Below, piece after piece: positions 9,191-58,259 of a stretch of 62,722 nucleotides of DNA. The notes beneath the pieces were generated by a model. The model was given only the letters and a program-made list of their open reading frames with translations, did not search any database and was not told the origin of the DNA. The first letter of the stretch is position 1; every line of letters begins with the position of its first letter. This stretch comes from a virus: IMG/VR virus record IMGVR_UViG_3300046522_000408, positions 1 through 62,722 of that record; one strand, 5' to 3'. The translations under genes were made by a program, and so were the position numbers.

Positions 9191-9495
9191 TGCAACTGGT
9201 CACGAAGCATGGCAACCCGGCATCCAAGGACCAGGCGGTGAAGCGCACCCGGCGGTTCTTCAAGGACGGGTGGAACTTCACAAGCTACGGCAGTTTCATT
9301 GCGTTCAAGGCTGACGACGGGACCGTGTACCTCGGTCACGAGTGGGACCACAGCAACACCACCCGGTTCTACCGGTGCCAGTTCCTCGGCGAGAACACCG
9401 CTGCCACCCGGAAGAAGATCGAGAGCGGGGAGTACACGTTCCCGTTCAAGAAGGTGTATGACTTTCCGGTGATCGTGAAGAAGGAGGAGACATGA
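9190..9495 (+). CDS. hypothetical protein
   Basis: The 101-residue product starts MQLVTKHGNPASKDQAVKR and is basic with many aromatic residues (RFFKDGWNFTSYGSFIAF). It looks like a beta-rich small domain. The ATG at 9190 has GGAGG five bases upstream; a GTG one codon earlier is possible. Confidence 0.72.
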   Translation: MQLVTKHGNPASKDQAVKRTRRFFKDGWNFTSYGSFIAFKADDGTVYLGHEWDHSNTTRFYRCQFLGENTAATRKKIESGEYTFPFKKVYDFPVIVKKEET

Positions 9496-9773
9496 ACAGC
9501 TAGTGGGGTGAGAAGGACAGCGTGTACGCCCGGGTCTACCCGGACGGGGTGTACCTGGAACCGGACCAGCAGGAACCGACAACGGGCATGGCGCTGGCGA
9601 TCCACTGCGCCCCGGAGGGCGCGATCGTGGAGGGTTTCGCCAGCCGGCTGGAGATCGCCGAATGGTTGGAGGACCTGGCCCGCAAGGTGCGGCTGGGTCT
9701 GATCAATGCCGAGGAGGGCAGCGAATACGAGCTGCCGGATACCGAGAGCGAGGAGAGCGATGAAGAAGTCTAA
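9492..9773 (+). CDS. hypothetical protein with in-frame amber near its natural start
   Basis: The best-placed start is ATG 9492, which overlaps the previous stop (ATGA) and follows AAGGAGG, but codon 4 of that frame is TAG (M-N-S-stop-W-G-E-K). The same frame is then open to 9773. Translation could restart at GTG 9522 (MYARVYPDGVYLEPDQQE, 83 residues), which has GAGAAGGA upstream. The protein ends in an acidic Glu/Ser tail. The TAG may be a simple mutation, a leader peptide, or a suppressible codon. Confidence 0.65.
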
Positions 9774-10173
9774 GGCGCTGCGCATCGTCATTGATGCGGC
9801 CGAGAACTGGGACAACGAGCTGCTGTCCAACATCATCCCGGTCCACGAACAGGACCCGGAGACGAAGGCCGAGGCCAAGGAGTACCGCAAGGATTCCAAC
9901 AAGATCGGGAAGGCGATCGCCCTGCTGACGGCGGAGCCCCAGTTGCTGACCCAACCCGAGATGGTCGGCATCGCCCGGTCCGTGATTGACGAGATGTACG
10001 ACCTGCCCGACAAGGAGTGGGCCCTGGGCTTCATCCAGACGTCGGACCATTGGCGGTGCCTAACCCACCGTGACCGCGGGGTCGCCGATGCCACGGAGAT
10101 CATCTATCTGGTGCACCAGACGGGCAACCGGCTGGGCTGGACCAAGACCGAGACCTGGGAGGAGCCGGAATGA
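9760..10173 (+). CDS. hypothetical protein
   Basis: The 137-residue product starts MKKSKALRIVIDAAENWDN. It is helical and charged, with DHWRCLTHRDRG in the C-terminal third. It overlaps the preceding gene by 14 bases; GAGGAGAG is the ribosome site. No family recognised. Confidence 0.74.
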   Translation: MKKSKALRIVIDAAENWDNELLSNIIPVHEQDPETKAEAKEYRKDSNKIGKAIALLTAEPQLLTQPEMVGIARSVIDEMYDLPDKEWALGFIQTSDHWRCLTHRDRGVADATEIIYLVHQTGNRLGWTKTETWEEPE

Positions 10174-10379
10174 GCAGGGTGCAGATCCATGGCACGATCA
10201 AGATTGACGGGGTGGAGACGCAGTTCGTGTTCCATGCCGACCACGGGTCGTGGGAGCAGTGGGGGGCCGGTGCCAGTAGGGAGGAGCTGGGGGAGAGGGT
10301 GCAGTACCTGGAGGCCATGTCCACCGGGCTGGCCGAGGACAGCGACTATTACAACCAACCGGAGGAGGAGGAGCTGTAA
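10170..10379 (+). CDS. small hypothetical protein
   Basis: The 69-residue product starts MSRVQIHGTIKIDGVETQF, a likely beta hairpin, followed by a helix (SREELGERVQYLEAMS) and an acidic end (PEEEEL). ATGA overlap upstream and a one-base overlap (TAATG) downstream. Confidence 0.7.
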   Translation: MSRVQIHGTIKIDGVETQFVFHADHGSWEQWGAGASREELGERVQYLEAMSTGLAEDSDYYNQPEEEEL

Positions 10380-10573
10380 TGCCGAAGAAAATCTACTGGG
10401 ACATGGTCGATGACGGGGATGACCCGAACCGGGCGTGGGGGGACAACACGGCACGGATCATCGACATGGAGGTGGGCGGGGTGGTCGCCTACTGCCACAA
10501 GGATGCTGCGCCCCGGCTGGTGAAGGCGTTCCGCATCTACCGGCAGGTACGAGACATCTTGGACACGCCGTGA
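10379..10573 (+). CDS. small hypothetical protein
   Basis: The 64-residue product starts MPKKIYWDMVDDGDDPNRA. It has an acidic loop and a basic C-terminal helix (RLVKAFRIYRQVRDIL). GGAGGAGGAG upstream. No function evident. Confidence 0.7.
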   Translation: MPKKIYWDMVDDGDDPNRAWGDNTARIIDMEVGGVVAYCHKDAAPRLVKAFRIYRQVRDILDTP

Positions 10574-10935
10574 GCGGGAGCGAGCATGTGATCTGGACCC
10601 CGCCCGAGGATGACCCGCACTGGGCCAGGATCGTGGGCCGCAAGGATGACATGGTGCACCTGTGGATGCCCGACGGGGGCATGGCGTGGGTGCCCGAGAC
10701 CGAGGTGCAGCCGATCCCGCCGCCGGTGATCGACACCGGCGTTGCCGGCCGGGGGGTGGAGGTCCCGGGCATGGCGTGGGTCAACTACGACGACCTGAAC
10801 GTGACCGTGACCCGGTCCACCGAGGACGGGCAGCTGGTGGTCTACGTCAACGCCCTGGACGAGGACGGCAGGGTGCGGGTGCGGGTGAAGGAGGCGGCAC
10901 GGGACACCGTGCTGTGGGAAGGGGAGGTGCTGTGA
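10570..10935 (+). CDS. hypothetical beta-rich protein
   Basis: The 121-residue product starts MSGSEHVIWTPPEDDPHWAR. Two beta modules are joined by a Pro linker (QPIPPPVIDTG); the second (LNVTVTRSTEDGQLVVYVN) is strongly beta. The GTG overlaps the previous stop. Function unknown. Confidence 0.72.
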   Translation: MSGSEHVIWTPPEDDPHWARIVGRKDDMVHLWMPDGGMAWVPETEVQPIPPPVIDTGVAGRGVEVPGMAWVNYDDLNVTVTRSTEDGQLVVYVNALDEDGRVRVRVKEAARDTVLWEGEVL

Positions 10936-11123
10936 CCGACGAGATCGAGAGCGAACTGGAGCGGTTGGAGGCCAAGCGCGTCCGGTACCTGAACCTGGCC
11001 AAGATGGCCGAGGGTGACCCGCCATCCCCGATCAACGTCGCCATGAAACGGGCGTCGATCAGGCGGGCAATCGAAATCGAGGGACAGATTGACCGGCTGC
11101 GGGCCGGGGGAAAGGAGAAGTGA
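10932..11123 (+). CDS. short coiled-coil protein
   Basis: The 63-residue product starts MTDEIESELERLEAKRVRY and has heptad-like Leu/Ile spacing at both ends (IRRAIEIEGQIDRLRAGG), predicting a helical hairpin or dimer. GTGA and TGATG overlaps couple it to both neighbours. Confidence 0.7.
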   Translation: MTDEIESELERLEAKRVRYLNLAKMAEGDPPSPINVAMKRASIRRAIEIEGQIDRLRAGGKEK

Positions 11124-11554
11124 TGGACCAGGAACTGGCGGCGGTGCTGGACGCCGCCGTGAACACCGTCCCCGAGGCCGACTGGAGGGACGAGCTGTGG
11201 GTGGGAACCACCGGGTTCACCCCCACCACGGGCACCATGCGGGTGCGTGGCGGCGGGCTGGGCTCGGGCGCCTGGGTCGCCAGGATCACCGGCACCCATG
11301 AGAAGTACGGGGTGGAGCGTGAGTTCATGGACGCCAAGCGCCACCTGTCCGGCAGTGGCCGGTCCGGGGACATCGACTGGGAGCTGGACGGGGACGGCAT
11401 CTACGAGTTCCGTGACGTGTGCACCGACAGCCGGCGCACCGAGAGCGGGTTCTTTCTGGTGTCCGAGGGGCGGGTGGCCAGGTTGGATGTGACCCGCAAG
11501 AAGGTGGCCGCATGGTTCACCGCAGAACCACTAACCGAGAGCGAGAAGGAGTAG
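11123..11554 (+). CDS. hypothetical protein
   Basis: The 143-residue product starts MDQELAAVLDAAVNTVPEAD. The centre is Gly-rich beta (MRVRGGGLGSGAWVARITG), followed by an acidic strand-turn segment (GDIDWELDGDGIYEF). AAAGGAG precedes the ATG. No family recognised. Confidence 0.72.
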   Translation: MDQELAAVLDAAVNTVPEADWRDELWVGTTGFTPTTGTMRVRGGGLGSGAWVARITGTHEKYGVEREFMDAKRHLSGSGRSGDIDWELDGDGIYEFRDVCTDSRRTESGFFLVSEGRVARLDVTRKKVAAWFTAEPLTESEKE

Positions 11555-11558
11555 GAAC

Positions 11559-12197
11559 ATGGCAACCAGGATTAATGTTGAACTGACCCTGATTGACGAG
11601 GAGGGGGGGGCCAGCGCGATCGGCGGCAAGTGCCTGAAGATCATCGCCCGGCAGGTCAAGGACGGCAACACGCACGGCCACGGGGAGATCTTCCACCCGG
11701 AGTATGGTGTGCCCGAGGCCCGCTGGATCTACACCGTGCGGCCCATGCTGGAGGAGGGCCAGTACACCGACGGGGCAGGCAACACCGTGGATGTTGACGA
11801 GGACGGCATGGTGTCCGGCGTGACCAATGCTGCCGGCCAGGTGACGCTGACCGAGATCACCCTGGAGGACGCCCCGATCGAGGCGATCGAATGGTTCCGT
11901 GACCATGGCGGCATCCGGACCGGAACCCCGATCCACCAGCAGCCGGTGCTCCTGGAGTTCGAGCACGAGGGCAAGGACTACGTGATCCGTGGGGAGCAGC
12001 ACGGCCCCACCCGGGCCCTCTTTGAGGGCAACACGTTCCTCCAATGGGTCAACCACCCGGGAGACCCTGACGACCCGGACCTGGCGATCGCCGTCGCCAA
12101 GAGCGTGCTGGACCGCATCGCCGACAACAAGGAGCGGATCGCCGCCGCCAAGAAGGCGCAGGAGGAGGCCAAGCGCAAGGCGGAAGGCGATAGCTGA
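11559..12197 (+). CDS. hypothetical protein
   Basis: The 212-residue product starts MATRINVELTLIDEEGGAS and ends in a Lys/Ala/Glu helix (KERIAAAKKAQEEAKRKAEG). The body is a beta-rich acidic domain. AAGGAGTAGGAAC gives the ribosome site. Function unknown. Confidence 0.72.
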   Translation: MATRINVELTLIDEEGGASAIGGKCLKIIARQVKDGNTHGHGEIFHPEYGVPEARWIYTVRPMLEEGQYTDGAGNTVDVDEDGMVSGVTNAAGQVTLTEITLEDAPIEAIEWFRDHGGIRTGTPIHQQPVLLEFEHEGKDYVIRGEQHGPTRALFEGNTFLQWVNHPGDPDDPDLAIAVAKSVLDRIADNKERIAAAKKAQEEAKRKAEGDS

Positions 12198-12237
12198 TCT
12201 ATGGCAATCGTGTGGCCCGCAGGTGGACCATTGGCGT

Positions 12238-12510
12238 ATGACGGTACACAAGTATGCGGTGGGGATCGGCGGGTGCACGCAGGAGCAGGCCGACGGGCTC
12301 ATGGCCCGCAAGTTCGGCGGCTCCGAGGGTGACGGATTCGAGTACGTGGCCGTGTGGCAGGTCGTGGACCGGCCACCCGACCAGTACCCGATCAGCTATG
12401 ACGGGTGGCAGGCCGCCGTCACCGACGGCAACACCATGCAGGGATTCAGCGACTGGGTGGCGTACAAGGGCCGGCTGGCCCGGGAACTAAAACAAAGGGG
12501 AGGGCGGTGA
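12238..12510 (+). CDS. hypothetical protein
   Basis: The 90-residue product starts MTVHKYAVGIGGCTQEQAD. It is a mixed alpha/beta domain with a basic tail (RLARELKQRGGR). The start is uncertain: no good ribosome site is visible, and GTG 12223 lies in the same frame. Confidence 0.6.
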   Translation: MTVHKYAVGIGGCTQEQADGLMARKFGGSEGDGFEYVAVWQVVDRPPDQYPISYDGWQAAVTDGNTMQGFSDWVAYKGRLARELKQRGGR

Positions 12511-12514
12511 GGTA

Positions 12515-12637
12515 ATGGCAACACTGGAGGAAATTGCCCGATGGTTGGGCACCAGCGTGGAGCTGGTGCCGGACAAGCAGGCAGCGGCAGAGGAGCGGGA
12601 GGAGGATGATGGCACACGTGGAGCCCGGGCAGGGTGA
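12515..12637 (+). CDS. 40-residue hypothetical protein
   Basis: The product begins MATLEEIARWLGTSVELVPD, which reads like a single helix-turn-helix, then an acidic stretch (EEREEDDG) and a basic end. It follows AAGGGGAGGG and overlaps the next gene by 29 bases. The coding claim rests on start, ribosome site and spacing only. Confidence 0.5.
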   Translation: MATLEEIARWLGTSVELVPDKQAAAEEREEDDGTRGARAG

Positions 12638-13085
12638 ACTGTTCGGCCCGGAGCAGGCGGCCGGCCGGTACGTGGACTGCGTGTACGTGCTGCACTACGA
12701 CCCGCGGACCGACCGGGAGGAGGGCGAGTATAACGTGACGGTCTACGCTGCCATGCCGGACGCCGAACGGCCTCCGTCGATGGTGCGCATGGACACGGAC
12801 ACCATCCTGGCCATGGACTGGCTGCCCCTGGACCGGGGGCAGTATCCGGACGAGGTGTTCATCCCCGTGGGACTGCGGGGCATGCCGCCGGAGAACTTCG
12901 AGGGCCGGTTCGGGCAGCGCATTGCGCTGGCCGCCCTCCGGGCCCTGTCCACCGCCGTGCAGGCGGAGATCAGCGGCTACCGGGTGGACAACGAGCTGAA
13001 CGTGGCCCGCTGGCGGGCCCCCAACCCGGGGGCCGTGGCGTTCCTGGAGCGGGTGCACGACGCAGCCGCCCGGCTTCAAGGGTAG
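12609..13085 (+). CDS. hypothetical protein with N-terminal QxxLF peptide
   Basis: The 158-residue product starts MAHVEPGQGELFGPEQAAG. QGELF near the N-terminus matches the QxxLF form of the bacterial clamp-binding peptide, in a flexible region. The rest is a mixed alpha/beta domain (VYVLHYDPRTDREEGEYNV; IALAALRALSTAVQAE). GGAGGAGG precedes tandem ATGs at 12606 and 12609; the second has better spacing. A terminator follows at 13094. Confidence 0.72.
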   Translation: MAHVEPGQGELFGPEQAAGRYVDCVYVLHYDPRTDREEGEYNVTVYAAMPDAERPPSMVRMDTDTILAMDWLPLDRGQYPDEVFIPVGLRGMPPENFEGRFGQRIALAALRALSTAVQAEISGYRVDNELNVARWRAPNPGAVAFLERVHDAAARLQG

Positions 13086-23487: not shown

Positions 23488-23541
23488 AAAAAGGGGTGGG
23501 GCCCGTCCCCCCGTTCGGTCATAGGGCTCCGCCCCTTTTTT
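23488..23541 (+). terminator. attenuator/terminator in the leader of the replication genes
   Basis: AAAAAGGGG (23488-23496) pairs with CCCCTTTTT (23532-23540), T-run extended by one base, around a loop containing GCCC/GGGC. It lies between the strong promoter and the first replication gene, so most transcripts would stop unless read-through is allowed. This is the usual design of an attenuator or antitermination target. Confidence 0.7.
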
Positions 23542-27963: not shown

Positions 27964-28211
27964 TGAGTCTGGTGAGTTTGGTTCAGGACGGCCCCCGGCC
28001 CGTGATCCACCGGGACCGGATCATCGAGGCCCTGGACCAGGTGCTCAGCCCCGAGGAACGCGCGGCGTTCCGGGAGCTGCTGCCGAACCCGGCCTTCAGC
28101 GCCCCGGCCATCGCCCAGGCCCTCCAGGACCTCGGCATTGCGGTAAACGCCTCCCAGGTCAACCACCTGCGCCGCAAGCTGCGCGAGGGAAGGTTGGCCT
28201 TTGAGTCTTAA
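27963..28211 (+). CDS. small helix-turn-helix protein
   Basis: The 82-residue product starts MSLVSLVQDGPRPVIHRDR. A helical part (IEALDQVLSPEERAAFREL) precedes a helix-turn-helix (APAIAQALQDLGIAVNAS, then QVNHLRRKLREG). GTG overlaps the previous TAG. A regulator or replication accessory is likely. Confidence 0.7.
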   Translation: MSLVSLVQDGPRPVIHRDRIIEALDQVLSPEERAAFRELLPNPAFSAPAIAQALQDLGIAVNASQVNHLRRKLREGRLAFES

Positions 28212-29370
28212 CGAGCTGCTGGCCACCCAGCAGGCAACCGAGCTGGCCGCCGTCCAACGGCAGGCCCCCACCGGCTGGCAGGCCGGACGGGAAGTCGTCG
28301 GCAGTGTGGGCGTGGGCATCACCCGCGGAACCCTCACGGGCGTCGACCCGGACCACCGGCAGATGCTGAAGGACGCCGGATTCGACCCCGACCGGTGGAC
28401 CATCGTCGGGGACGTCCACCACCGGGAGTGGGACGCGCAAACCAAGACCGGCATCCAGGTGCTGGTGTCCCGGCGCTTCAACGCCCGCCTGATCGGCGGG
28501 GAAGGGCAGAACATTGATGACCTCCTCAAACTTGTCCGCAGACGACGAGGCCCGAGCCGCCCTGCGGCTGAGTCAGGCGGTGGCGGCACTTTCGTACTCG
28601 CGCAAGGTGACTTCCAGCTTGGAAAAGGTGACGGAGACGGGACTAGCGGCACTGTCGATCGCATTGTCCGGTCCATCGATCAGGCCGCAGCCGAGTATCG
28701 CGCCCTGCGTCGTCTACGCCCAATGCCGTTTGTCCACCTCCCTTTTTTGGGAGACTGCATCGAAGGGTTCGTGTCCCAAGGCGGGCGGCTCGCGTGGCGG
28801 ACCGAACTAACCCTCACCGAGCAGCTGCGGCTCACCCGCCGGCTGATGCTCTACACCATCGACCAGTTCGCGCCCCTGGCCGAACGGGTAACCGCCGTCA
28901 GTGTCCCGGGAAATCACGACGAGGCCACGCGTGAACCAATGACCCGGTTCGATGACAGCTTCGCCGTGGACGCGCTGGTCGCCGTCCAGGACGCCATGCT
29001 GCTGAACAGCGCCGCCTACGGTCACGTAGAAACTGTGGTCCCCCGTACGGACGAACTCACCGTAACGATGGATGTTAATGGCACCGTCTTTGTCCATCTG
29101 CATGGTCACCAGTTTAGGCCCGGCAAGCACTGGGAGTGGTGGAAGGGGCAGGCGTTCGGCGGGTCCGACGCGCACCAGGCCACGGTCATGCTCCACGCCC
29201 ATTCTCACCACTTCCACCTGGACACCAAGGGGCAGCGCACCGCCATCATGGCGCCGGCGCAGGAATCCCGCAGCCAGTGGTGGGTCAACAAGACCGGCGA
29301 GGTGGGCGCCCCGGGCGCCCTGATCTTCACCACCGAACAAGGAAAGGCCAGGGATTTTTCCATTGTCTAG
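28201..29370 (+). CDS. metallophosphoesterase
   Basis: The 389-residue product has calcineurin-like motifs in order: QGDFQLGK (~145), LGDCIEGF (~190), PGNHDEAT (~240), HLHGHQF (~302) and HAHSHHF (~331). An extra N-terminal ~130 residues resemble a DNA-interaction or HTH-containing region. Phage proteins of this type may act as DNA exonucleases or as phosphatases. TTG start overlapping the gene upstream. Confidence 0.83.
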   Translation: MSLNELLATQQATELAAVQRQAPTGWQAGREVVGSVGVGITRGTLTGVDPDHRQMLKDAGFDPDRWTIVGDVHHREWDAQTKTGIQVLVSRRFNARLIGGEGQNIDDLLKLVRRRRGPSRPAAESGGGGTFVLAQGDFQLGKGDGDGTSGTVDRIVRSIDQAAAEYRALRRLRPMPFVHLPFLGDCIEGFVSQGGRLAWRTELTLTEQLRLTRRLMLYTIDQFAPLAERVTAVSVPGNHDEATREPMTRFDDSFAVDALVAVQDAMLLNSAAYGHVETVVPRTDELTVTMDVNGTVFVHLHGHQFRPGKHWEWWKGQAFGGSDAHQATVMLHAHSHHFHLDTKGQRTAIMAPAQESRSQWWVNKTGEVGAPGALIFTTEQGKARDFSIV

Positions 29371-29980
29371 CCCTGAAGAACTCGACCTGGACCTGGACGC
29401 CGTCCTCCTGGAACTCGACGCCCCCGCCGCCACGGCCCTGTCCCGGGCCTCCCGGGCCGAACGCAATGCGGTGTTCGCCGAACTGTACGGCGACATCGTC
29501 CGTTCGGTCGCCAAGCGCGAGCACCGGCAGTCGACCACGACCACCCGGGAGGACCTGGAGCAGGAGCTGTTCCTGTTCTTCTACTCCCGCATGGACTCGA
29601 TCGCCCGGTTCTCCGAACCGGGTATCCGGTCCCTGGCCATCACCGCCGCCCGGGACATCATGCTCCGCGAACGCCTGGACTACATGTATTTCTCCGGCGC
29701 CTACGTCTATATCCCGCCCATGGTCAGCGCCCTGCTGAAGGAATGCGTGTGGACCGAGGTCGACGGGTGCCCCGACATTGAGGGGCGCATGGACGTGACC
29801 ATCGCGGTGAAGGAGCTGCCGCTGGAAACGCAGCGGCTGCTGTTCGGCAAGTACGCGCTCGGGGAGGCGCACGACGTCCGCTCGGCCGCGTACAAGCGGG
29901 TCGAACGGGCCATCGACACCATCACCCACCGGCTGAACATGGGCAGCGTCCCGTACCAGGTCGACATCGAAACCGCATAG
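29363..29980 (+). CDS. sigma-factor-like protein
   Basis: The 205-residue product has a region-2-like helical segment (REDLEQELFLFFYSRMDS; FSEPGIRSLAITAARDIM) and a region-4-like helix-turn-helix at the C-terminus (LPLETQRLLFGKYALG, SAAYKRVERAIDTI). The order and length resemble divergent phage sigma-like proteins. It is the last regulator of the early block and could direct RNA polymerase to late promoters. TTG start. Confidence 0.68.
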   Translation: MSSPEELDLDLDAVLLELDAPAATALSRASRAERNAVFAELYGDIVRSVAKREHRQSTTTTREDLEQELFLFFYSRMDSIARFSEPGIRSLAITAARDIMLRERLDYMYFSGAYVYIPPMVSALLKECVWTEVDGCPDIEGRMDVTIAVKELPLETQRLLFGKYALGEAHDVRSAAYKRVERAIDTITHRLNMGSVPYQVDIETA

Positions 29981-29994
29981 CCTGAGGAGGCCCA

Positions 29995-30288
29995 ATGACC
30001 GTTTATAGCACCGCAACCCCCGGCTCCATCCCGACCGATCCCGACGACGAGGACGAGGTCATCCCCGTCAAGATCGTCCGCCCGGAAACGGGCGGCCTGG
30101 ACCTGGCCGCGGCCTTGATCTTCATGGTCCTGCACCAGGCGTTCATCGCCGGGATGCTGTGGCTGTTGGCGGCCCTGCTGATCCCGGAGGCTGGCATCCA
30201 TTACGGCATCACCGTGCTGGTGGCGCTGACGTTCCGGCTGGCGATCTTCACCCGCCACCGCTACTCGTGGTGGACGCACTCCAGCTGA
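29995..30288 (+). CDS. small membrane protein
   Basis: The 97-residue product starts MTVYSTATPGSIPTDPDDE with an acidic head. Two transmembrane helices follow (AALIFMVLHQAFIAGMLWLL; IHYGITVLVALTFRL) with a basic Trp-containing end. CTGAGGAGG is the ribosome site. A holin-like or exclusion role is possible; the lysis genes, however, are on the other strand. Confidence 0.75.
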   Translation: MTVYSTATPGSIPTDPDDEDEVIPVKIVRPETGGLDLAAALIFMVLHQAFIAGMLWLLAALLIPEAGIHYGITVLVALTFRLAIFTRHRYSWWTHSS

Positions 30289-30310
30289 GCTGATCCCGAG
30301 CCGGAAACAA

Positions 30311-30340
30311 CAAAAGCCCCCCGTTTCCGGGGGGCTTTTG
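30311..30340. terminator. bidirectional terminator E1
   Basis: CAAAAGCCCCCC-GTTTCC-GGGGGGCTTTTG is a perfect 12-bp stem with A- and T-tracts, terminating transcription in both directions between the convergent early and late operons. Confidence 0.9.
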
Positions 30341-30392
30341 CTATGGGGGGTGGTCGGCCAGGGGCCTCACGCGGCCAGCTTAACACAAAAAG

Positions 30393-30470
30393 AAGCCCCC
30401 AGCTGTCCCCGCCCGCGACCAAGCGGGGTTGGAGTCCGTCCGAGGAATCCAGGGGGAGAGCTGGGGGCTT
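30393..30470. terminator. compound hairpin E2
   Basis: AAGCCCCCAGCT (30393-30404) pairs with AGCTGGGGGCTT (30459-30470), a 12-bp stem. The 54-base interior folds into CCCCGC/GCGGGG (30407-30428) and a GGA-TCC/GGA-TCC hairpin, giving a three-way junction. It is symmetric enough to stop both strands. Confidence 0.65.
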
Positions 30471-30520
30471 TAGATTGGTCACCGACCAAGGTGAACCCGA
30501 ACAGCGTAGCACCGACAGCA

Positions 30521-30579
30521 AAAAGGCCCCCAATCGTCCTCCGGGAGGAGCCGGAGTTGGTAAAGGCTGGGGGCCTTTT
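30521..30579. terminator. compound hairpin E3
   Basis: AAAAGGCCCCCA (30521-30532) pairs with TGGGGGCCTTTT (30568-30579). The interior contains TCCT/AGGA and GCC/GGC stems. CAGC before and GCT after extend the pairing. Confidence 0.65.
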
Positions 30580-30626
30580 CGCTTTACCTGGCAGCAAGGA
30601 AACTGCACGGCCAGCCTACCAGAAAC

Positions 30627-30723
30627 AGCAAAAAGCCCCGGAACCTTTCCCTTCCCTGAGCTGAGTGACCAGACCAGGACGCCCCTTGCAACTAGGGGCT
30701 CGGGAAAGCCGGGGCTTTCGCTG
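30627..30723. terminator. compound hairpin E4
   Basis: CAGC-AA-AAAGCCCCGG pairs with CCGGGGCTTT-C-GCTG, and the stem continues after an AAC bulge with CTTTCCC/GGGAAAG (30645-30651, 30702-30708). An apical GCCCCT/AGGGGC hairpin lies at 30681-30699. It is the longest stem in the array. Confidence 0.65.
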
Positions 30724-30729
30724 TGCGGA

Positions 30730-30764
30730 CTACGGTGCTGGCGGGTACCCGGCGGACACCGTAG
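30730..30764. repeat. hairpin E5
   Basis: CTACGGTG (30730-30737) and CACCGTAG (30757-30764) form 8-bp arms around a GC-rich loop. There is no T-run; it closes the array before the holin gene end. Confidence 0.55.
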
Positions 30765-30828
30765 CCTGCTGGTAACCTAACCAAAGGAACCATGTCAAGC
30801 GTAGCACCCATGCCGGATGCCGCAAGGG

Positions 30829-31107
30829 CTATCCGCCGCGGGTTCCGCCCTTCAGCGCGGACACCCCGCCCGTGCCCTTCAGCCGGTGAAGGTAGCTGGC
30901 CGTGGAGGCCAGCACGGATTTGATGACCAGCACCCCGACCGCGGACCAGAACTGGAGACTGGTCACGGGCGCCTCCCCCAGGAGTACGGTCAGGCCGGCG
31001 CCGACGGTCACCAGGGCGTCGATCAGGATGTTCTGCTTGAAACTGCGCCACGCCCTGTCTAGGGCGTCCGCGTACCGGTCACGGTCATCCGCCACGTGCT
31101 CAGACAT
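30829..31107 (-). CDS. holin-like protein
   Basis: The 92-residue product starts MSEHVADDRDRYADALDRA. An amphipathic head is followed by two hydrophobic helices (LIDALVTVGAGLTVLLG; LQFWSAVGVLVIKSVLA) and a basic Gly/Lys tail (LHRLKGTGG). It overlaps the endolysin gene by 8 bases. The features match two-TM phage holins that release the endolysin. Confidence 0.8.
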   Translation of the reverse strand: MSEHVADDRDRYADALDRAWRSFKQNILIDALVTVGAGLTVLLGEAPVTSLQFWSAVGVLVIKSVLASTASYLHRLKGTGGVSALKGGTRGG

Positions 31108-31786
31108 CCTTGATCACCGCCCCGCTGCCCTTGGCCACGTAGATCTGCACCCGGCCCCACTTCTGGGTGTCGATCAACGCGACCTGCCCGGGAACCGTCC
31201 AGCCCTTGATCGTGTACGTCATGCCGTTGTACCGGGCCGGCGCGAGGTACGCGAACACGTTCTTGGCCACCGGCCGGGCCCCAACCCGGTAGACTCCCCA
31301 GACGGTGGCGGTCCTGGGCAGGTGCACCGTCTGCTTCTTCCCAATCCCGGTTGCGGGCTTCGCGGCCGCCGGCTTCGGGACCGCCGCCGGCTTGACGGTC
31401 ACGGTCGGCAGGGCCAGCGTCCACGCGTGCCCCTGCTCGGCCGCCTTGGTGTGCTTCAGGCTGATGTGGATGTGCTTCTCGTGGGCGTTCAGGCCCGTGT
31501 ACGGGCGCCACCGGGTGCCGCCCCAAATGCGGCCCTCGTAGATGACGTAGGACACGCGCGGGTCATGCAGCACCGCCTCCAGGACCACGGCGGTGTCGAT
31601 GCCGTCCTCGTCCACGTCGATGGCCCGCACGATCCCGCCGTTCGCGTAATCCGGGTTGTGGTCGGACTTGGTGGCCTGGTGGCTGGCGTCGCCGATCCAC
31701 CCGTCCGACGCCTTGTCGCGCTTGGGCCAGCGGCTGTCGATCTGATCCCGCAGCTTCACCAGCGACGGGGCAAGGTAATAGGTCAT
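31100..31786 (-). CDS. endolysin, M15-type peptidase plus SH3-like domain
   Basis: The 228-residue product has an N-terminal peptidase with ASHQATKSDHNPD (~34-46), RAIDVDEDGID (~54-64) and EKHIHISLKH (~102-111): the His/Asp/His zinc ligands of M15 D,L-type peptidases. A Pro/Ala/Lys linker (~130-150) leads to a C-terminal beta domain (WGVYRVGARPV...VQIYVAKG), probably cell-wall binding. It cleaves peptidoglycan peptides at lysis. Confidence 0.85.
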   Translation of the reverse strand: MTYYLAPSLVKLRDQIDSRWPKRDKASDGWIGDASHQATKSDHNPDYANGGIVRAIDVDEDGIDTAVVLEAVLHDPRVSYVIYEGRIWGGTRWRPYTGLNAHEKHIHISLKHTKAAEQGHAWTLALPTVTVKPAAVPKPAAAKPATGIGKKQTVHLPRTATVWGVYRVGARPVAKNVFAYLAPARYNGMTYTIKGWTVPGQVALIDTQKWGRVQIYVAKGSGAVIKDV

Positions 31787-31848
31787 GGTGCCCTCCTTGG
31801 GCAGGGGAAAGGCGGCCCCCGAAGATCGGGGGCCGCCCTGGTGGTTGG

Positions 31849-33831
31849 TTACTTCTCGATGCCGCCGGACACGTCGCGGAAGACCACCGCGACCTCCACG
31901 CCGCCGAGCACGACACGCTCCGACGCGGGCAGCACCGTGTACGCGACCGTGGCCGTGGACGTCAGACCGTCCCCGTCGGTGACGGTCAGCTCGAAGCCGA
32001 GCACCGTACCCGTGACCGTGGGCGGGGCGATGACCGTCCGGGTCGCCCCGGTGCCGGTGATCGTGACCGTCTCACCGGCCGTCTGCGCCCACGCGAACGA
32101 GGCGATCGTGCCGTCCGGGTCGGTGGACGCTGTGCCGTTCAGGAACAAGGTCGTGCCCGGTTCCACGTTGTTCGCACCCGACCCGGCATTGGCGATCGGC
32201 GGGACCGCCAGCGGCGCGTGCGGGCCCAACAGCGACGTGCTGGTGGGGTCGTAGGTCACGGAATCGAAGTAGAAAGTGTTGTTGCCGGCGTTGTCGATCT
32301 TGCCGAAACGCATCAGCACCATCGGGTCGATGCCCAGGTTCTCGGTCGTGGACGTGAACGTGTCCACGGCCGTGGTCGAATCCAGCGAGTACAGCCCGAA
32401 CCAGACCTTGGAGTTGGCGGTCGTCGTGCCGATCTCCACCGCGAACTCCACCCGGTACCAGGCGTTGGTGGTCAGCACCGGGGTGTCGTGGATCGAGGAA
32501 CCCGCGGCGCCGGTCACCTGGAGCTTGCCCGTGGTGTGCCAGATGATCCCGGCCGCCTGCGCGGCCTCGGACCGGTAGATGACCACGTTGTTGGACGCGG
32601 TCGGCAGGGCCGGGTACCGGACGTAGAACCGGCCGGTCAGCTTCTTGGTCGAACCGACCGACCACTGCACGAACCCCTTGCCGGCGTTGCCGGCGGCCAC
32701 CATGGCCTTGCCGCCGTGCGCGGCCGTGGTCGTGAACTTGATGGACCCGCCGGTCGTGGTCTCCGTGTAGTCGAACGCCGTACCCGACCCGCCGCCGGAG
32801 TTGGCGGGGGTGATGTCCGACCCGCTCATGCCGCCGTCGAACGTGTTCTGCACCTGCGTGCTGGTGCCGCCCGGGGACAGTACCGAGAACGACACGCTGT
32901 CGGTGCCGGTTGCCCCGCTGTTGTCCGTGACGGTCAGCGTGAAGTCCAGGTTCGTCCCCCCGGCCACGGCCGGGGCCGTGAACGTGCGCACCGCCCCGCT
33001 GCCGGTCAGGACCACCGTCGGACCACCGGTCTGCGCCCAGCTGTACGAGGAAATCGTCCCGTCGCTGTCCGTCGAGTTGGACCCGGTCAGGGTGATCACG
33101 GTACCGGGCAGGATGCCGGACCCGCCCGAACCCGCAACCGCGGTCGGGGCCAGGTTCGCCGCCACGTACGGGGCGATCCACCCACTGGTCAGCGTCTGCG
33201 CCTGCATCGAGTCGTAGTACACGGTCCACGTCTGCGCGCGGCCCGTGGACCGGCCCAGGTACACCGACGCCGAGTTGGTGGTGCCCGTGTTCTGTACCGA
33301 GCTGGTCCACGAAAACACCGGGGTGGTGGACTCGCCCACGAAGTAGCGGTACCCCATAAGCCCGTCCGTGGTGGTGGTGCCCTTCTGGACCTCCACCTCC
33401 AGGCGCAGCCACGTGTCGGCCGGGATCGCGTTGGTCGCGCGGGACGCGCTGATGCCCGCGCCGGCCGCGTTGGTCATGACCAGCTTCCCGTCCGCGCCGA
33501 TACCCAGCACGCACATGGTGCCCGTCGCGTTGCGCACCGCCATCACGTCGTCGACCACCGTCGGGACGGTCTCCGCCAGGAAATAGGTGGTGAACACCAG
33601 GCGCCCGGCCTCCGCGAAGTTCCACAGCACGCGGTGCGCCGCACCGCCGGAGGCGTGGATCATGGTCAGGGACCGGGACCCGTGGCCGGTGCGGAACGAC
33701 GTGGCTTCCATCGTGGAACCCGTGGACAGGGTCACCGTATTGGCGGCGTTGCCCGACGTGCCGCCCGAGTTGGTCGTGGTGAGGGTCGTGCCCAGCGGCA
33801 CGCCCTCCAGGGTGTTGATGATCGAAGGCAT
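31849..33831 (-). CDS. virion surface protein with duplicated LamG-PKD modules
   Basis: The 660-residue product is Thr/Ser/Gly-rich and modular: a concanavalin/LamG-like domain (~1-225), a PKD/Ig-like domain (~226-325; TDSDGTISSYSWAQTGG), a second LamG-like domain (~330-545), and a second PKD domain (~548-645; TDPDGTIASFAWAQTAGE). The two halves are clear duplicates. Such domains bind glycans on host surfaces, so this is probably a fibre or tail-tip decoration. ATG at 33831 after AAGGAGTC. Confidence 0.78.
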   Translation of the reverse strand: MPSIINTLEGVPLGTTLTTTNSGGTSGNAANTVTLSTGSTMEATSFRTGHGSRSLTMIHASGGAAHRVLWNFAEAGRLVFTTYFLAETVPTVVDDVMAVRNATGTMCVLGIGADGKLVMTNAAGAGISASRATNAIPADTWLRLEVEVQKGTTTTDGLMGYRYFVGESTTPVFSWTSSVQNTGTTNSASVYLGRSTGRAQTWTVYYDSMQAQTLTSGWIAPYVAANLAPTAVAGSGGSGILPGTVITLTGSNSTDSDGTISSYSWAQTGGPTVVLTGSGAVRTFTAPAVAGGTNLDFTLTVTDNSGATGTDSVSFSVLSPGGTSTQVQNTFDGGMSGSDITPANSGGGSGTAFDYTETTTGGSIKFTTTAAHGGKAMVAAGNAGKGFVQWSVGSTKKLTGRFYVRYPALPTASNNVVIYRSEAAQAAGIIWHTTGKLQVTGAAGSSIHDTPVLTTNAWYRVEFAVEIGTTTANSKVWFGLYSLDSTTAVDTFTSTTENLGIDPMVLMRFGKIDNAGNNTFYFDSVTYDPTSTSLLGPHAPLAVPPIANAGSGANNVEPGTTLFLNGTASTDPDGTIASFAWAQTAGETVTITGTGATRTVIAPPTVTGTVLGFELTVTDGDGLTSTATVAYTVLPASERVVLGGVEVAVVFRDVSGGIEK

Positions 33832-42124: not shown

Positions 42125-45100
42125 TTAGCTCAGGCCGGGGACGCTCGCGTACTGGAGCGCCCGATTCACGGTGGTGCTGGTCTTCTCGGCCACCGGGTAG
42201 TAGTTCGTCACGTTGATCGTCGGACCGCCGGAGGAATTGGAAATTCCGCCATCCGCAAACTCCTGCGCACCGAGCAGCCGGCCCGTCTCCCGCCAAATCT
42301 GGAGGGACCGCTTCCGCTTGGAGGCGCTGAGCGGGATAAATACCTCCCCGCCCGTCTGAGGCTCCGCAAAAATGCGGTACTGGCTGGCGGGCTTGTAGAT
42401 CTTTGCCCCGCCCAGCGGCTCGTTGACGATTCCGCCATCCGCAAACGCATGGAACTGGGGCGCGAACTTCTTGGAGTACACGCCCCGGCCGTACGAGATG
42501 CCGCCGTCCTCGGTGCCGGGGGTGACCACCACGCCCGGGGGTTTGGGCATCGACTTGAACTTGGTCTCGTACGTGGTGACCACGGACGTGCGGGCCACCG
42601 TGCCGTCGATGATTCCCAGCAGGGAGTTGATGGAGTTCAGCCGGCCCTGCGCGGTCGCGGTCTCCGCGATCACCTCGGGGGTCGGCTTCTGCCGGCCCAG
42701 CTCCCGGATCTTGTTCATCACAACCAGGCGTTCGGTCTCGAACATCCGCGGGTCCATGTCCGCGCCCACCGTCGGGTTCTGCAAACCCAGTTCGATCAGC
42801 GCGGCGATGACCTGATCCTTCTTCGCGTTCAGCTCGTCCGGGTTCAGGTCCGCGTACGCGGTGGCGATCAGCCCGTCCACGGTGTCAAGGTCGCCCTTGG
42901 CCTCCAGGATCTTGCCGGCCAGGCCTTCCTTGTCGGCGGTGATCTCCGCGACCGTGCGCTTGCCCTGAAGCTCGCCCAGCAGCCGGTTGACCTCCTCGAC
43001 GGTCAGCGGAACGCCGTCCGCGTTGGCCGTGATCAGCGTGGTCAGCTCGCCCGGGTTGGCGCCCATCATCTCGTCGTAGACCCGCAGCGCCACGTCCCGT
43101 CCTCCCAGCGAGGCGGCGGACGCATCGGCCCACGCGTTGCGCTGGTTCTTCAGGTACTTGTTGACGTTGCCGACGCTTTCGCCCGAGGCGTCCATGCTGA
43201 TGGCCGTCTGGAGGGTGGTGTCCTTCACCTTCTCCAGGGACCGGGACAGCTCGATGCCCTCGCGGGAACCGAGCTTGATCACGCCCGTGGACTTCTCGAT
43301 AGCCTTCTTGTAGGAGACGACATTGCCCTCGGCGTCCTTCCACATGTCCTTCGCGTCCAGCATCGCCTCGTTCGAGTCCCGCTGGGAGTCGATCAGGTCC
43401 GGCTGCACGCCGTTCAGGTCGTCGATCGCCTGCTTCAGGGCCCGGGTCTTCTCCTCGGCCGAGGCCGTGTCGTCCGCCAGGACGCTCATGGCATCCTGGA
43501 ACGACTGGATGACCGGCTTCGCGCCTTCGGCCTGGTCCGCCACCCACCGCAGCTCGTCGCCGGTCGTGGAGATCGTGCCGCGGTTGTTCTGCATGAAGCT
43601 GATCAGGTTGCGCACCTTCACCTCGGTGGTGTTCACCGCGCCGGCCGCGTACCCCATCTCCTGCTCCCAGGCGTTCAGCTCCTCGCGGCTGCCGGCCGTT
43701 TCGTTGCCGTAGGCATCGAACTGGGGTCCGGCCGCATGGAGGGCATCGGCCAGGGAACTGAGCTTGCCGACCATCCCGTCGAACGCCGGACCGCCGTCGG
43801 TGGTCGCCTTGATGACGTCGTCCACCCCAAGCTTCAGCTCCCGCAGGGTCTCGATCTCGCGGGTGTCGTTGCCCATCCAAAGGAACCCGTCCTGCCGCTG
43901 GTTCATGATCTCGGCCTTCAGGAACGCGTTGGTCGCGTCCGTCGCCGCACCGGTCACCTGATCCAGGGTGTCGCGCAGCTGCTGTGCCTTGGCCGCAGCC
44001 TCGGCCTGCTTCTGGGCCAGCAGGCCCAGCGCCACCACCGCGCCCATGATGGCGATGCCCCAGCCGCCGCCGAGGGCCTCGACCAGGCCCGCACCGGCCC
44101 GCCGCAGCGGACCGGTCATGGCCTTGCCCGCGTTGACCGCGGCCGTCGCCAGGGCACTCACGTGCCCGGTCGCCGTCTGGGCGAACCGGGAGATCGGGGC
44201 GAAGGCCGCACTGGCCTTGCCCCCCACGTACCCGAACGCGGTTGTCATCTTCGTGCGGAACTCGGCCGCCTGGGCGATCGGCCGGGCCAGGACCGACTGC
44301 ATGACGTTGCCCATGCCCTGCCCGAAGCGGGTCACCGCGCCGGTGGCCACGGTCATGCTCCGCAGCGTGTCCTGCCCGAGCGTGCGGGCACCGAGGCGGA
44401 CGTCCGAGAACGCCCGGCCGGCGAACTGCCCGAACCGCTGCATGATGGGAGGCAGCTGGCCGAAGGCCCGCACCGTATCCTGCCCGACCACCTTGGCGGC
44501 CGCACCCAGCTCCCGGAACCGGGTCCGGGTGTTGGTCACGTCCCCGCCGAGCTTCCGGGCCTCGGTTGCGGCCAGGCCCATCAGCATGCCGTTGGTGCCG
44601 ACCTTCTTGATTTCCTCGGCCGTCTTGCCGGCCAGCGCCTGCTGGGTGGCCCATTCCTTGCGCATGCGCGCGAACGGTGCGGTCGCCAGCAGCGCCGCCA
44701 TGGTCTTGCCCAGGGCTCCGCGCAGCAGCAGGAACGCGCCCGCGGCAATCGCCACGGACTTCAGCACGCCCGGCCAGCTGTCGAAGATCTCCAGCCCGTC
44801 CGCGGCGATCTTCGCCACCGACCCCAGGACGTTCCCCAGGGTCGTCAGGGACCCGGCCAGCTGCTTGGTCAGCAGCGGGCTCAGCTTGGACAGGGGCCCG
44901 GCCAGCTCCTGCATCATCCGGCTTACGCCGGTGATGATGGAGGAGAACACCGGGGCCAGGGTCCGGAACGCGTTGCCCGAGAGGGTACCGATGTCGCCGA
45001 TGATCGTCCCGAGATCCTCGAAGACCGGGTTCAGTTCCTTGGACAGCTCCAGCAGGCCGGAGAACGAATCCAGCACACCCGACTGGAGCCGGGTGTTGCT

Positions 45101-48100
45101 CAGCGCGGAGGCCAGGTTGATCAGCCACTGCCCGCCGATCTGGCCGGTCACGTCCAGGAAATCGCGCCAGAACCCGGAGGTCCTACCCAGCACGTCCCCG
45201 AGGCGTTCCACGCCGTCCCACAGGGCCGAGGCCCCCTCGCGCATGCCGTCGAACAGGTCGCCCATGCGACTGCGGAACGGCTCCTGGTTCATGGACGCCG
45301 CGATCTTGTCCATGCCCCGGGCGAAATCGGTCAGGGACGGGGCGCCGGCGTCGGACGCCGCGGAGGTCAGGCCGCGGAACATGTCGATGACCGAATCCCC
45401 GATGTCCCACATGTCCTGGAGGGACTGCACGCCATCCTGAATCCAGCGGTCGATGTCCCCGGTCTTGGCGGCCGTGCGCACCCACCGGTCGAACTGGTTG
45501 GCGATGTCCGTGATCCAGGTGCCGAACATCGGCAGGTACGCCGAGCCGCGCAGGCCCAGCAGATTGAACGCGTCAAAGAACGGCTGGGCCGCCCCCGAGA
45601 GGTTGTCGAACATCAGGGATATGTTGGTGAACATGTCCTTCAGCTGGCCCTGGTCGGCCAGCTTGATGAACGAATCCAGGATGCCCTTGGTCAGCCGGCC
45701 GGCGGCCGGCGCGATCTGCACCAGGCCCTCCTTCACCCCGGGGATCAGGCGGTCCTTCAGGCGGGAGATCGAGTCCCCCATTTCCTTCCAGTAGGCCTCC
45801 TGCACCGGGTCGGCCAGGTCGCGGAAGGTTCCCCGCAGGGACTCCACGGCCTTGCGGGCCAGCGGGGGCAGCTTCGCCAGGGCGTCCTTGGCCACCACGG
45901 GGATGTCGGAGAACGCCTGGGCGAAGTTGGAGTAGGCCATGGAGAACACCGAGAACCCGGCGGCCGCCGAGAACAGGGCGGTCGGGGCCAGCGTCAGCAG
46001 GCCCACCACGTCCAGCACGCCCTCGCCGATGCCCAGCAGGGAGCTGGTCAGGGACCCGACGACGTTGGCGACGTTGCCCACGATCACGGAGATCTTGCCC
46101 ACGCGCAGGGCCCAGGTGTCGAAGTTGGTGAAGATGCTCTCGAACTTGCGGCCGATGTCCTGGGCCACGTTCAGGCCGGCCAGGGACAGCAGGGCGCCCT
46201 CGGCAATCGCAAAGGACTTCTCGTTGACCTTGGCCAGGATGTTCACGGTTCTCGGCCGCGTGAGGAACTGGAACCGGGCCGCCGTCAGCGCAAGGCCGGT
46301 CGGGTTCACCTCGATCTCCGCCTCCATGGCGTCGATCTTGTCCTTCAGCTCCTGGGCCTCGTGCTTGGCCCGCTCGATCGACTCCTTGGACACGCCCACG
46401 GACAGCTCCGCGAACCGGGCCTTCTGCGTCTTGTCGCCGGTCAGGGACCGCAGCCACGCCTCGCGCAGCTTGGACGTGTCAAAATCGTCCGCGGCCGCCA
46501 GGTCGGCCAGGCGCAGGGCATTGCCCAGATCCTTGACCTCCTCGACCATGTCCGAAGACAGGTCCCGGATGTCCCGCTGGAAAGCGAGCCGGGCCTGGGC
46601 ATCCCCGGCCAGCGCCTTGCGCCACGTGTCCGCCAGACTCGGGGCGTTCGCCGCCTCGTCCGCGGCCCGCACGATCGCCAGGCGCAGCCGGTTGCCGGCC
46701 TCCTTGATCTCCTTCACCGCATCATCGGTGATGGTGCGGGACTCCTCGGCCCACCGCAGGCGGGCCTTCACGTCCCCGGCCAGGGTCCGCTCGAACAGCT
46801 TGGTCATCTCGGCCATGTCGACCGAGGAGAACAGGTTGTCGTACATGCGCTGGCGGATCGCCCGGAAGCGGCCGTTGTCCCTGGCCGCCTGCCGGTACGC
46901 CTCCTGCTCGATGCGCTCCAGCTCGATCCGGCCGTTGTCGCGCAGCTGGTCGGCCCGGTTCGCGTTCTCGCTGCCGAAACGCTGGCGGCCCTGCTGGTCC
47001 AGACGTTCGCGCTCGATGCGCAGCCGGATCGCCGTGGCCAGCGCGTCCGAGGCCAGGTCGTTGTCCAGTACCTGCCACCGCAGGGACCGCAGCTGGGACA
47101 GGCTCAGCTTGTCGATCAGCTGGGTCTGTTCCTTGATTTCCCGCTCGCGCTTGTCCACCACCCGCAGGCGCATGGCCTCCGAGATCGGATCGTCATCGGC
47201 GCCCTGCGCATCGAGCAGGTCCGTATACAGCATCTTGCTGAAGCGGGCATACTCGGCGGTGGCCCGGCGCATCCGGACTTCCGACTCCAGTTCGACCAGG
47301 CCGGACTCCGCGAAATACTCCTTCGCGGAGCGGACGGCGTCGTCGTAGTAGTCCGACATCTCGCGGTTCTGCCGGCGCTGATTGGCCAGAGCCTTGTCAA
47401 CGACGCCCTGCCGGCGCCGGAACGCCGCCGCCTCCGCGGCAAAGATGCCCCGGTACGTGTCGGGGAATGCCCGCGCGTACTGCTCCAGGTGGTAGACCGA
47501 CTGCTCGCGCAGCCACTTGGCCTCCTCCTCCATCTTCGCCATTTCGTTCAGGCGATCCTGGGCCAGCTTCAGGTTGTCGTCGTCCGTGAACTGCTCCAGC
47601 AGAGCCTGCCATTCGGAGGCGTCAATGATCTTGCCCTCGGCGTCCTTCTTGACGAACCGATCGCGCTGCACCAGGAACTTTTCGAGCTGGTCGCGCTGGT
47701 CGCGCAACCGGTCCAGCGTTTCCTTCAGGTTGAGGCGGTCCGCGAAGTCGGCGATCGGGCCCAGGACGCCGGAGTTGCCCTCCTTGACCTTCTTGTCCAG
47801 GTCGTCAATCATCGCGTCGTACTGGCCGGCCAGCTGCTTGACCGTCTCCAGGTCGGCCTTGTTCTTGTCGATCAGCTTCTGATGGTCCTGGAACCCGGCA
47901 TCCACGATGTCGGTCTTGAACTCCTCCGCCATCGCCTTGTGGTCCTTGGCCGCCTCGACCATCTCGCGGCGCAGCGCCTTGACGTCCTTGGACGCGCGCA
48001 TCATGTCCCGGAACCAGTTGGCCGGCACCACCGTGTTCTTGTCCTTCAGGAACCGGGCCTGCTCGTTCAGCAGCCCCAGCTCCTCGCGCAGCGGCCGCAG

Positions 48101-48469
48101 CGCCTCCTGGAGGGACTTGGAGAACCGGATGATCGCGCCCTCGGTGGACTTGTCCATCCCCTCCGGGGTGATCTTCACCTTGATCCGCAGGGACTGGAGG
48201 TCCTTCATCTTGTCCAGCTCGCGCTGCAAGTCCTTGCGCTGAAGCTCCGGGTTCACCGGCAGCTTCGCGCCCTCCGCCGCCTGGCGCTTGGCCTCGGCCA
48301 TGACCTTGGTCATGGCGGTCTTGTCCAGGTCCGGCTTCGCCTCGACGTTGATCTTCGGATCGACGTCCGCCAGCTCGCGCCGGACCCCGCGCTCGGTCTC
48401 CTCGCCGAAGCCGCGGGTGTCAGGACGAACCTTGACGCCTACGGCACCGATCAGCTTAATGTCGGCCAA
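42125..48469 (-). CDS. tape measure protein
   Basis: At 2114 residues this is the longest gene. It has long coiled-coil helices in the first ~800 residues (KDKNTVVPANWFRDMM; EKFLVQRDRFVKKD), hydrophobic segments mid-protein (LLTLAPTALFSAAAGFSVF; VAIAAGAFLLLRGALG; GWGIAIMGAVVALGLLA), and a Gly-rich C-terminus (GGEVFIPLSASKRK). By the usual ~0.15 nm per residue it would set a tail of about 0.3 micrometre. TTG start at 48469. A 2653-codon frame on the other strand is its shadow. Confidence 0.93.
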   Translation of the reverse strand: MADIKLIGAVGVKVRPDTRGFGEETERGVRRELADVDPKINVEAKPDLDKTAMTKVMAEAKRQAAEGAKLPVNPELQRKDLQRELDKMKDLQSLRIKVKITPEGMDKSTEGAIIRFSKSLQEALRPLREELGLLNEQARFLKDKNTVVPANWFRDMMRASKDVKALRREMVEAAKDHKAMAEEFKTDIVDAGFQDHQKLIDKNKADLETVKQLAGQYDAMIDDLDKKVKEGNSGVLGPIADFADRLNLKETLDRLRDQRDQLEKFLVQRDRFVKKDAEGKIIDASEWQALLEQFTDDDNLKLAQDRLNEMAKMEEEAKWLREQSVYHLEQYARAFPDTYRGIFAAEAAAFRRRQGVVDKALANQRRQNREMSDYYDDAVRSAKEYFAESGLVELESEVRMRRATAEYARFSKMLYTDLLDAQGADDDPISEAMRLRVVDKREREIKEQTQLIDKLSLSQLRSLRWQVLDNDLASDALATAIRLRIERERLDQQGRQRFGSENANRADQLRDNGRIELERIEQEAYRQAARDNGRFRAIRQRMYDNLFSSVDMAEMTKLFERTLAGDVKARLRWAEESRTITDDAVKEIKEAGNRLRLAIVRAADEAANAPSLADTWRKALAGDAQARLAFQRDIRDLSSDMVEEVKDLGNALRLADLAAADDFDTSKLREAWLRSLTGDKTQKARFAELSVGVSKESIERAKHEAQELKDKIDAMEAEIEVNPTGLALTAARFQFLTRPRTVNILAKVNEKSFAIAEGALLSLAGLNVAQDIGRKFESIFTNFDTWALRVGKISVIVGNVANVVGSLTSSLLGIGEGVLDVVGLLTLAPTALFSAAAGFSVFSMAYSNFAQAFSDIPVVAKDALAKLPPLARKAVESLRGTFRDLADPVQEAYWKEMGDSISRLKDRLIPGVKEGLVQIAPAAGRLTKGILDSFIKLADQGQLKDMFTNISLMFDNLSGAAQPFFDAFNLLGLRGSAYLPMFGTWITDIANQFDRWVRTAAKTGDIDRWIQDGVQSLQDMWDIGDSVIDMFRGLTSAASDAGAPSLTDFARGMDKIAASMNQEPFRSRMGDLFDGMREGASALWDGVERLGDVLGRTSGFWRDFLDVTGQIGGQWLINLASALSNTRLQSGVLDSFSGLLELSKELNPVFEDLGTIIGDIGTLSGNAFRTLAPVFSSIITGVSRMMQELAGPLSKLSPLLTKQLAGSLTTLGNVLGSVAKIAADGLEIFDSWPGVLKSVAIAAGAFLLLRGALGKTMAALLATAPFARMRKEWATQQALAGKTAEEIKKVGTNGMLMGLAATEARKLGGDVTNTRTRFRELGAAAKVVGQDTVRAFGQLPPIMQRFGQFAGRAFSDVRLGARTLGQDTLRSMTVATGAVTRFGQGMGNVMQSVLARPIAQAAEFRTKMTTAFGYVGGKASAAFAPISRFAQTATGHVSALATAAVNAGKAMTGPLRRAGAGLVEALGGGWGIAIMGAVVALGLLAQKQAEAAAKAQQLRDTLDQVTGAATDATNAFLKAEIMNQRQDGFLWMGNDTREIETLRELKLGVDDVIKATTDGGPAFDGMVGKLSSLADALHAAGPQFDAYGNETAGSREELNAWEQEMGYAAGAVNTTEVKVRNLISFMQNNRGTISTTGDELRWVADQAEGAKPVIQSFQDAMSVLADDTASAEEKTRALKQAIDDLNGVQPDLIDSQRDSNEAMLDAKDMWKDAEGNVVSYKKAIEKSTGVIKLGSREGIELSRSLEKVKDTTLQTAISMDASGESVGNVNKYLKNQRNAWADASAASLGGRDVALRVYDEMMGANPGELTTLITANADGVPLTVEEVNRLLGELQGKRTVAEITADKEGLAGKILEAKGDLDTVDGLIATAYADLNPDELNAKKDQVIAALIELGLQNPTVGADMDPRMFETERLVVMNKIRELGRQKPTPEVIAETATAQGRLNSINSLLGIIDGTVARTSVVTTYETKFKSMPKPPGVVVTPGTEDGGISYGRGVYSKKFAPQFHAFADGGIVNEPLGGAKIYKPASQYRIFAEPQTGGEVFIPLSASKRKRSLQIWRETGRLLGAQEFADGGISNSSGGPTINVTNYYPVAEKTSTTVNRALQYASVPGLS

Positions 48470-56158: not shown

Positions 56159-56166
56159 AAGGGCTC

Positions 56167-57831: not shown

Positions 57832-58259
57832 TGGGCCTGCTTGCCCGACAGGATGTCCTTGTAGGCCGCGATCGCCACCACCGTGGCATCCTGCGCGTCA
57901 GCGTCCGGCTCGCTCAGCTCCAGCCTCAGCACCGCCCGGCGGTCGCCCTCCGTGGTGCCCAGCCGGCCCATGATCGCGTTCAGCTCCGCGATCATCTGCG
58001 CGCACCGGTAGAACCGCTGCTCGTAGATGTGCGTCATCAGGTCGCACGCGAACAACGCCATCGACCAGTCGCTGTTCTGGTAGTAGTCGCTCATGCCCGA
58101 GGACCGCAGCGCCCCGTACCAGGCCTTCGCCCGCGGATGCCACTTCGGGTCCGCCCGAGGGATGCTAACCGGACGCAGCTCGCCCTGGCGGGCGGGGCCG
58201 CCGGCCGGTTCGGGGCGGCGGGTGCGTTCTTCGGATCTTTTCGGGGCAGGACCGGGCAT
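57828..58259 (-). CDS. terS: terminase small subunit
   Basis: The 143-residue product starts MPGPAPKRSEERTRRPEPA, a basic flexible N-terminus typical of TerS, then helices (SMALFACDLMTHIYEQRFY; AELNAIMGRLGTTEGDRRA). Position directly before TerL supports the call. It would recognise the packaging site. Confidence 0.82.
   Translation of the reverse strand: MPGPAPKRSEERTRRPEPAGGPARQGELRPVSIPRADPKWHPRAKAWYGALRSSGMSDYYQNSDWSMALFACDLMTHIYEQRFYRCAQMIAELNAIMGRLGTTEGDRRAVLRLELSEPDADAQDATVVAIAAYKDILSGKQAQ

Follow-up and report, generated by a model that had tools for sequence, protein, structure and literature searches.

A stack of four terminator-like hairpins between converging early and late operons of a probable actinobacterial phage

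INTRODUCTION

Where two phage operons converge, why should the gap between them hold five hairpins? We addressed this question for IMG/VR virus record IMGVR_UViG_3300046522_000408, a linear record of 62.7 kb from a tailed phage with a GC content of ~67%; the whole stretch of 62,722 nucleotides was analyzed and is referred to here as the window. An earlier note, made from the letters of the sequence, had read the gap at positions 30289 to 30828 as an array of stacked compound terminators and had suggested that three of them, E2 to E4, might give rise to related small RNAs or make up a repeated family of regulatory RNAs.

RESULTS

Gene setting and probable host. The late genes lie on the minus strand and include those for the terminase small subunit (57828-58259), portal (54650-56341), maturation protease (53509-54660), major capsid protein (51735-52901), and tape measure protein (42125-48469). 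Nearer the gap is an endolysin-like late gene (31100-31786), which matched phrog_32486 (unknown function; 6e-18) and phrog_5182 (endolysin; 4.5e-4). The last gene of the late operon (30829-31107) matched phrog_32276 (unknown function), and its position suggests that it encodes a holin. On the plus strand, the early operon approaches the gap with an exonuclease gene (28201-29370), a second-last gene for a sigma-factor-like protein (29363-29980; phrog_354, sigma-K factor; E value of 4e-12), and a last open reading frame for a 97-amino-acid protein (29995-30288), which has a third-position GC content of 0.92 and for which no family match was found. Similar portal, capsid, and exonuclease proteins occur in named phages, mostly of Mycobacterium, Streptomyces, and other actinobacteria, all at <60% identity; the host is therefore most likely an actinobacterium. 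Elsewhere in the window, the protein encoded at 3796-5013 matched DNA polymerase III beta-clamp domains, and two minus-strand tRNA genes were found (61721-61793 and 62064-62135; Rfam scores of 49 and 55 bits). ARAGORN assigned neither tRNA a normal three-base anticodon, giving four bases in one and two in the other.

Five hairpins fill the convergent gap. The gap spans 540 nt directly behind the converging stop codons, from the early gene end at 30288 to the end of the holin-like gene at 30829, and ~460 nt of it is taken up by the five hairpins of the earlier note, all of which we located. E1 (30311-30340) is short and has the textbook layout of a terminator for both directions, with a perfect 13-bp stem and a 4-nt loop. 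E2 (30387-30476) is three-way branched, with a closing stem (30393-30410/30453-30470) around two inner stems, and E4 (30625-30724) likewise branches three ways around two inner stems. E3 (30516-30584) is compound, its closing stem (30517-30532/30568-30583) enclosing one main inner stem. The enclosed lengths (~42, ~35, and ~67 nt for E2, E3, and E4) agree with the note, as do the internal stems, except that E3 has essentially one. Spacers between elements are ~40 to 50 nt. All five fold far better than dinucleotide shuffles, with z-scores on the plus and minus strands of −2.5 and −5.2 for E1, −6.5 and −5.7 for E2, −3.7 and −3.7 for E3, −6.7 and −5.6 for E4, and −3.8 and −3.3 for E5.

In E1 to E4, GC-rich closing stems sit between A-tracts and T-tracts, so that on either strand a GC-rich stem is followed by a U-tract. 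The 8 nt after the stem contain 5 T residues on the plus strand and 6 on the minus strand for E1, 5 and 7 for E2, 5 and 6 for E3, and 4 and 6 for E4. Since Streptomyces terminators typically carry 3 to 4 U residues in 10 nt (PMC12207403), E1 to E4 look usable in both directions. E5 (30725-30769), in the 3′ untranslated region (UTR) of the late operon, has no T-tract and does not share this form; four of the five hairpins are thus terminator-like. Hidden genes in open reading frames spanning the array were rejected because GC content by codon position is not coding-like there (third-position values of 0.60 to 0.61, versus 0.88 to 0.94 in the flanking genes). A lone long A-tract/T-tract hairpin also occurs in the early region of the window, at 23488-23540.

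A four-member array is uncommon. A mechanical finder of A-tract/GC-stem/T-tract hairpins, which counts two-sided elements and leaves clusters of one-way terminators uncounted, grouped E1 to E4 as a single four-member array, a tandem array being at least two complete terminators in one intergenic region. Run on 100 shuffled windows, it averaged 0.5 single hits and never reported an array. Across a comparison set of 302 further viral loci totaling 2.66 Mb, a few of which overlap and over one-third of which had been fetched because they contain a tandem-terminator word, the finder returned 116 elements, among them four pairs and no triple. Because the shuffles held no arrays and the other viral loci held four pairs and no triple, we conclude that the four-element array is real and uncommon, and the stacking described in the note is supported. 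No homologue of the array was present among 50,697 phage records. Tandem pairs of bidirectional terminators were seen in viral contigs L188, L204, L236, and L267; in the first three, the two members differ little or not at all, as a duplication would leave them.

Relatives carry a single element at the same junction. Exonuclease alignment identified four related phages (L083, L106, L109, and L110), with exonucleases 57 to 63% identical and portal or capsid proteins 51 to 59% identical to those of the window. In all four, the early operon is followed directly by one long hairpin of the A-tract/GCCCC...GGGGC/T-tract form, in keeping with the note's remark that one terminator normally suffices. 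The arms are AAAAAGCCCCAGCTTCGACC...GGTCGAAGCTGGGGCTTTTT in L083, AAAAAGCCCCCCACC...GGTGGGGGGCTTTTT in L106, and AAAAAGCCCCCTACCCCGGG...CCCGGGGTAGGGGGCTTTTT in L109; the L110 hairpin is that of L109 minus one base per arm, a matching loss. L106 shows direct synteny on either side of the junction (sigma-like protein, 37% identical; holin-like protein, 45% identical over 77 amino acids), and its 214-nt gap holds a single T-tract terminator. The sigma-like protein is 37 to 41% identical to the product of the same-place gene in L106 and L109.

In the four relatives the stem is fully paired while its sequence differs. Since pairing is kept while sequence is replaced, the element type is conserved at this junction and multiplied in the window's phage, four against one. 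Such compensatory changes, which the note had looked to as a sign of a regulatory RNA, are thus present, in the one terminator that each relative has; they support a terminator stem and not a regulatory RNA, and E2 to E4 of the window have no orthologues. The branched form also recurs at the junction within the group, as the L106 hairpin has two inner stems and branches like E2 and E4. A direct descent of E1 or E4 from the relatives' terminator was considered and rejected, the similarity being no better than that to the terminator of unrelated contig L103.

Other features were seen near the junctions of the relatives. Behind the holin-like gene of L106, the closest relative with synteny, the late 3′ UTR (9220-9362) contains a branched fold closed by TGTCCGGTA/TACCGGACA, with a z-score of −3.6 on the minus strand and no T-tract; E5 occupies the same place in the window. 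Behind the junction terminator, L083 carries a TIR_2-domain gene (11306-12223), and L109 carries four plus-strand genes without a Pfam match together with a minus-strand DUF4062 gene (9438-12855). The spot behind the junction terminator may be a site for cargo or defense genes.

Used as single-sequence queries against viral contigs, the holin-like and sigma-like proteins retrieved no relatives; the exonuclease alignment did. The exonuclease had only two distant hits in 395 genomes from the class of Micromonospora. The nearest named phages were set aside as a direct comparison because early and late genes are on the same strand in Streptomyces phage Marav, and the stretch of Bxb1 read for comparison has no convergent junction.

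E2 to E4 do not form a recognizable RNA family. The likeness among E2, E3, and E4 is limited to the terminator ends and ~20 nt of left flank; the interiors are unrelated, and the elements are not homologous over their full length, as copies of one family would be. An array of full duplicated copies was rejected for this reason. Similarity was greatest for E3/E4 and E2/E4 (P of ~0.005, as the best pairs among ten comparisons). The window contains the word CAGCAAAAAG at two places only, E3 and E4, and CAAAAAGCCCC also marks terminators of unrelated viruses. A AACGACAAAAAGCCCC-type word is common to L083, L106, L109, and the unrelated terminator of L103 and so reads as a common terminator idiom. 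The word shared by E2 to E4 resembles terminators on unrelated viral contigs to an equal degree. Long terminators carrying the AACGACAAAAAGCCCC-type word turned up, each as a single element, in ten viral contigs (one of which, L095, is the L109 phage itself), and 9 of the 10 fold as closed stems.

We found no sigma-70-type promoter site in positions 28000 to 33000, including between the hairpins. At curated Rfam thresholds, the array had no match and only the two tRNAs passed in the window; the best match touching the array reached 28 bits, where the threshold is 55, and loose thresholds gave no credible match to the array. A MAFFT alignment of all elements was too poor for a covariance model. 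The proposal of three related small RNAs or a repeated RNA family is thus unsupported: the interiors are unrelated, sigma-70-type promoter sites and curated-threshold Rfam matches are lacking, and the array has no homologue in the phage records.

DISCUSSION

We consider it quite probable that E1 to E4 are a stack of four bidirectional intrinsic terminators, which form a redundant two-way barrier at the meeting point of the two operons, and that E5 is a hairpin of the late 3′ UTR. Polymerase leaving the early operon would meet E1 first, while polymerase from the late/lysis operon would pass E5 and then E4, E3, E2, and E1, with E4 as the first T-tract terminator reached by late transcription. 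Each element would stop part of the traffic, so that the stack would keep late transcription out of the early genes, where it would be antisense, and likewise early transcription out of the late genes. Termination at E1 to E4 is predicted from sequence and structure. The T counts, which are higher on the minus strand for every element, suggest that strength may be biased toward the late operon.

Published work offers precedents for such an arrangement. In Mycobacterium smegmatis, tandem hairpins outperform single ones in termination, and hairpin clusters are commoner at high GC content (PMC8355165). Bidirectional ends in Streptomyces clavuligerus show low read-through (PMC8269248), and the converging units of phage tf have a bidirectional terminator between them (PMC3517423). 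The stack would presumably benefit the phage, but that four relatives manage with one element argues against redundancy being generally needed, and hairpins of great length may be weaker terminators than short ones.

The number of elements might instead be historical. If the junction tolerates accessory genes, extra terminators could have been left over as cassettes repeatedly came and went or as short duplications arose; each would still work, but their number would not be under selection. This account is possible, although we think it somewhat improbable. The TIR-domain gene of L083 and the multigene DUF4062 block of L109, both behind the junction terminator, are consistent with it, as are the left flanks of E2, E3, and E4, which are alike over 20 to 28 nt, and the duplicated tandem terminators of L188, L204, and L236. 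Against it, a scan of the relatives' cargo found no bidirectional terminator belonging to that cargo, and the 40- to 50-nt spacers are too short for a gene remnant. An exact 11-mer, AGCGTAGCACC, flanks the segment from E3 to E5 (30503-30513 and 30798-30808), but ~9% of shuffled gaps hold a repeat as long; a direct repeat within chance does not help this account, and we rejected it as an insertion scar. Four elements rather than one could reflect a tighter barrier favored by selection, accretion at a cargo site, or both. The two are not mutually exclusive, and for this reason our confidences in the barrier and in accretion add up to more than unity.

A role as small RNAs, in which the branched E2 to E4 (or E5) would be cut from read-through transcripts or be transcribed from promoters of their own and act as regulators or decoys during infection, seems to us very unlikely. 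The branched folds are very stable (z-scores to −6.7), and the late 3′ UTR of L106 is also branched without a T-tract; beyond stability, nothing points that way. The E2 to E4 interiors share no homology with each other, no promoter-like site or curated-threshold Rfam match was found, and the array has no homologue elsewhere, the relatives having one element only. Equally doubtful is a broader version, in which the branched terminators together with the late 3′ UTR structure would be released as stable phage RNAs late in infection, their branched shape selected while the sequence turns over; under that version, the RNAs might serve as a regulator, a ribonuclease decoy, or an exonuclease block. 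Least probable of all, and in our view hardly credible, are palindromes acting as double-stranded DNA, whether as operators, as an attachment site, or as cruciforms. Every element is an inverted repeat, and E5 is palindrome-like without a T-tract, but A- and T-tracts directly at GC stems are needed by terminators and not by operators, and the window shows no enrichment of the 11-mer near E3 and E5. An attachment site was also set aside because a search of the record for tyrosine integrases gave no match.

A two-way terminator stack would leave the view of the termination mechanism unchanged. It offers a clear natural case of terminator stacking, with four elements here and one in each of four relatives, and the array could be a source of strong two-way terminators for use in GC-rich hosts and could be used to test why converging phage operons add barriers.

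Among known systems, the closest in kind are the bidirectional intrinsic (Rho-independent) terminators of phage tf (PMC3517423) and S. clavuligerus (PMC8269248), which share the GC-rich stem, the A-tract and T-tract sides, and the placement between converging units. The array differs from them in having four terminators in tandem, not one, and in that three elements enclose further stems where a loop of 4 to 8 nt is usual. Tandem (U-shaped) terminators and hairpin clusters (PMC8355165), such as the M. smegmatis gyrA tandem hairpins cited there, are alike in that several hairpins make up one unit. Those clusters consist of short hairpins with 2- to 10-bp stems <15 nt apart, whereas the stems here are long, the spacers are ~40 to 50 nt, and every element carries a T-tract of its own on either strand. 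The junction terminators of L083, L106, L109, and L110 match in position and outer form, and that of L106 shares the three-way branching, but each stands singly and has unrelated inner sequence. The parts of the stack are those of ordinary terminators; their number is unusual.
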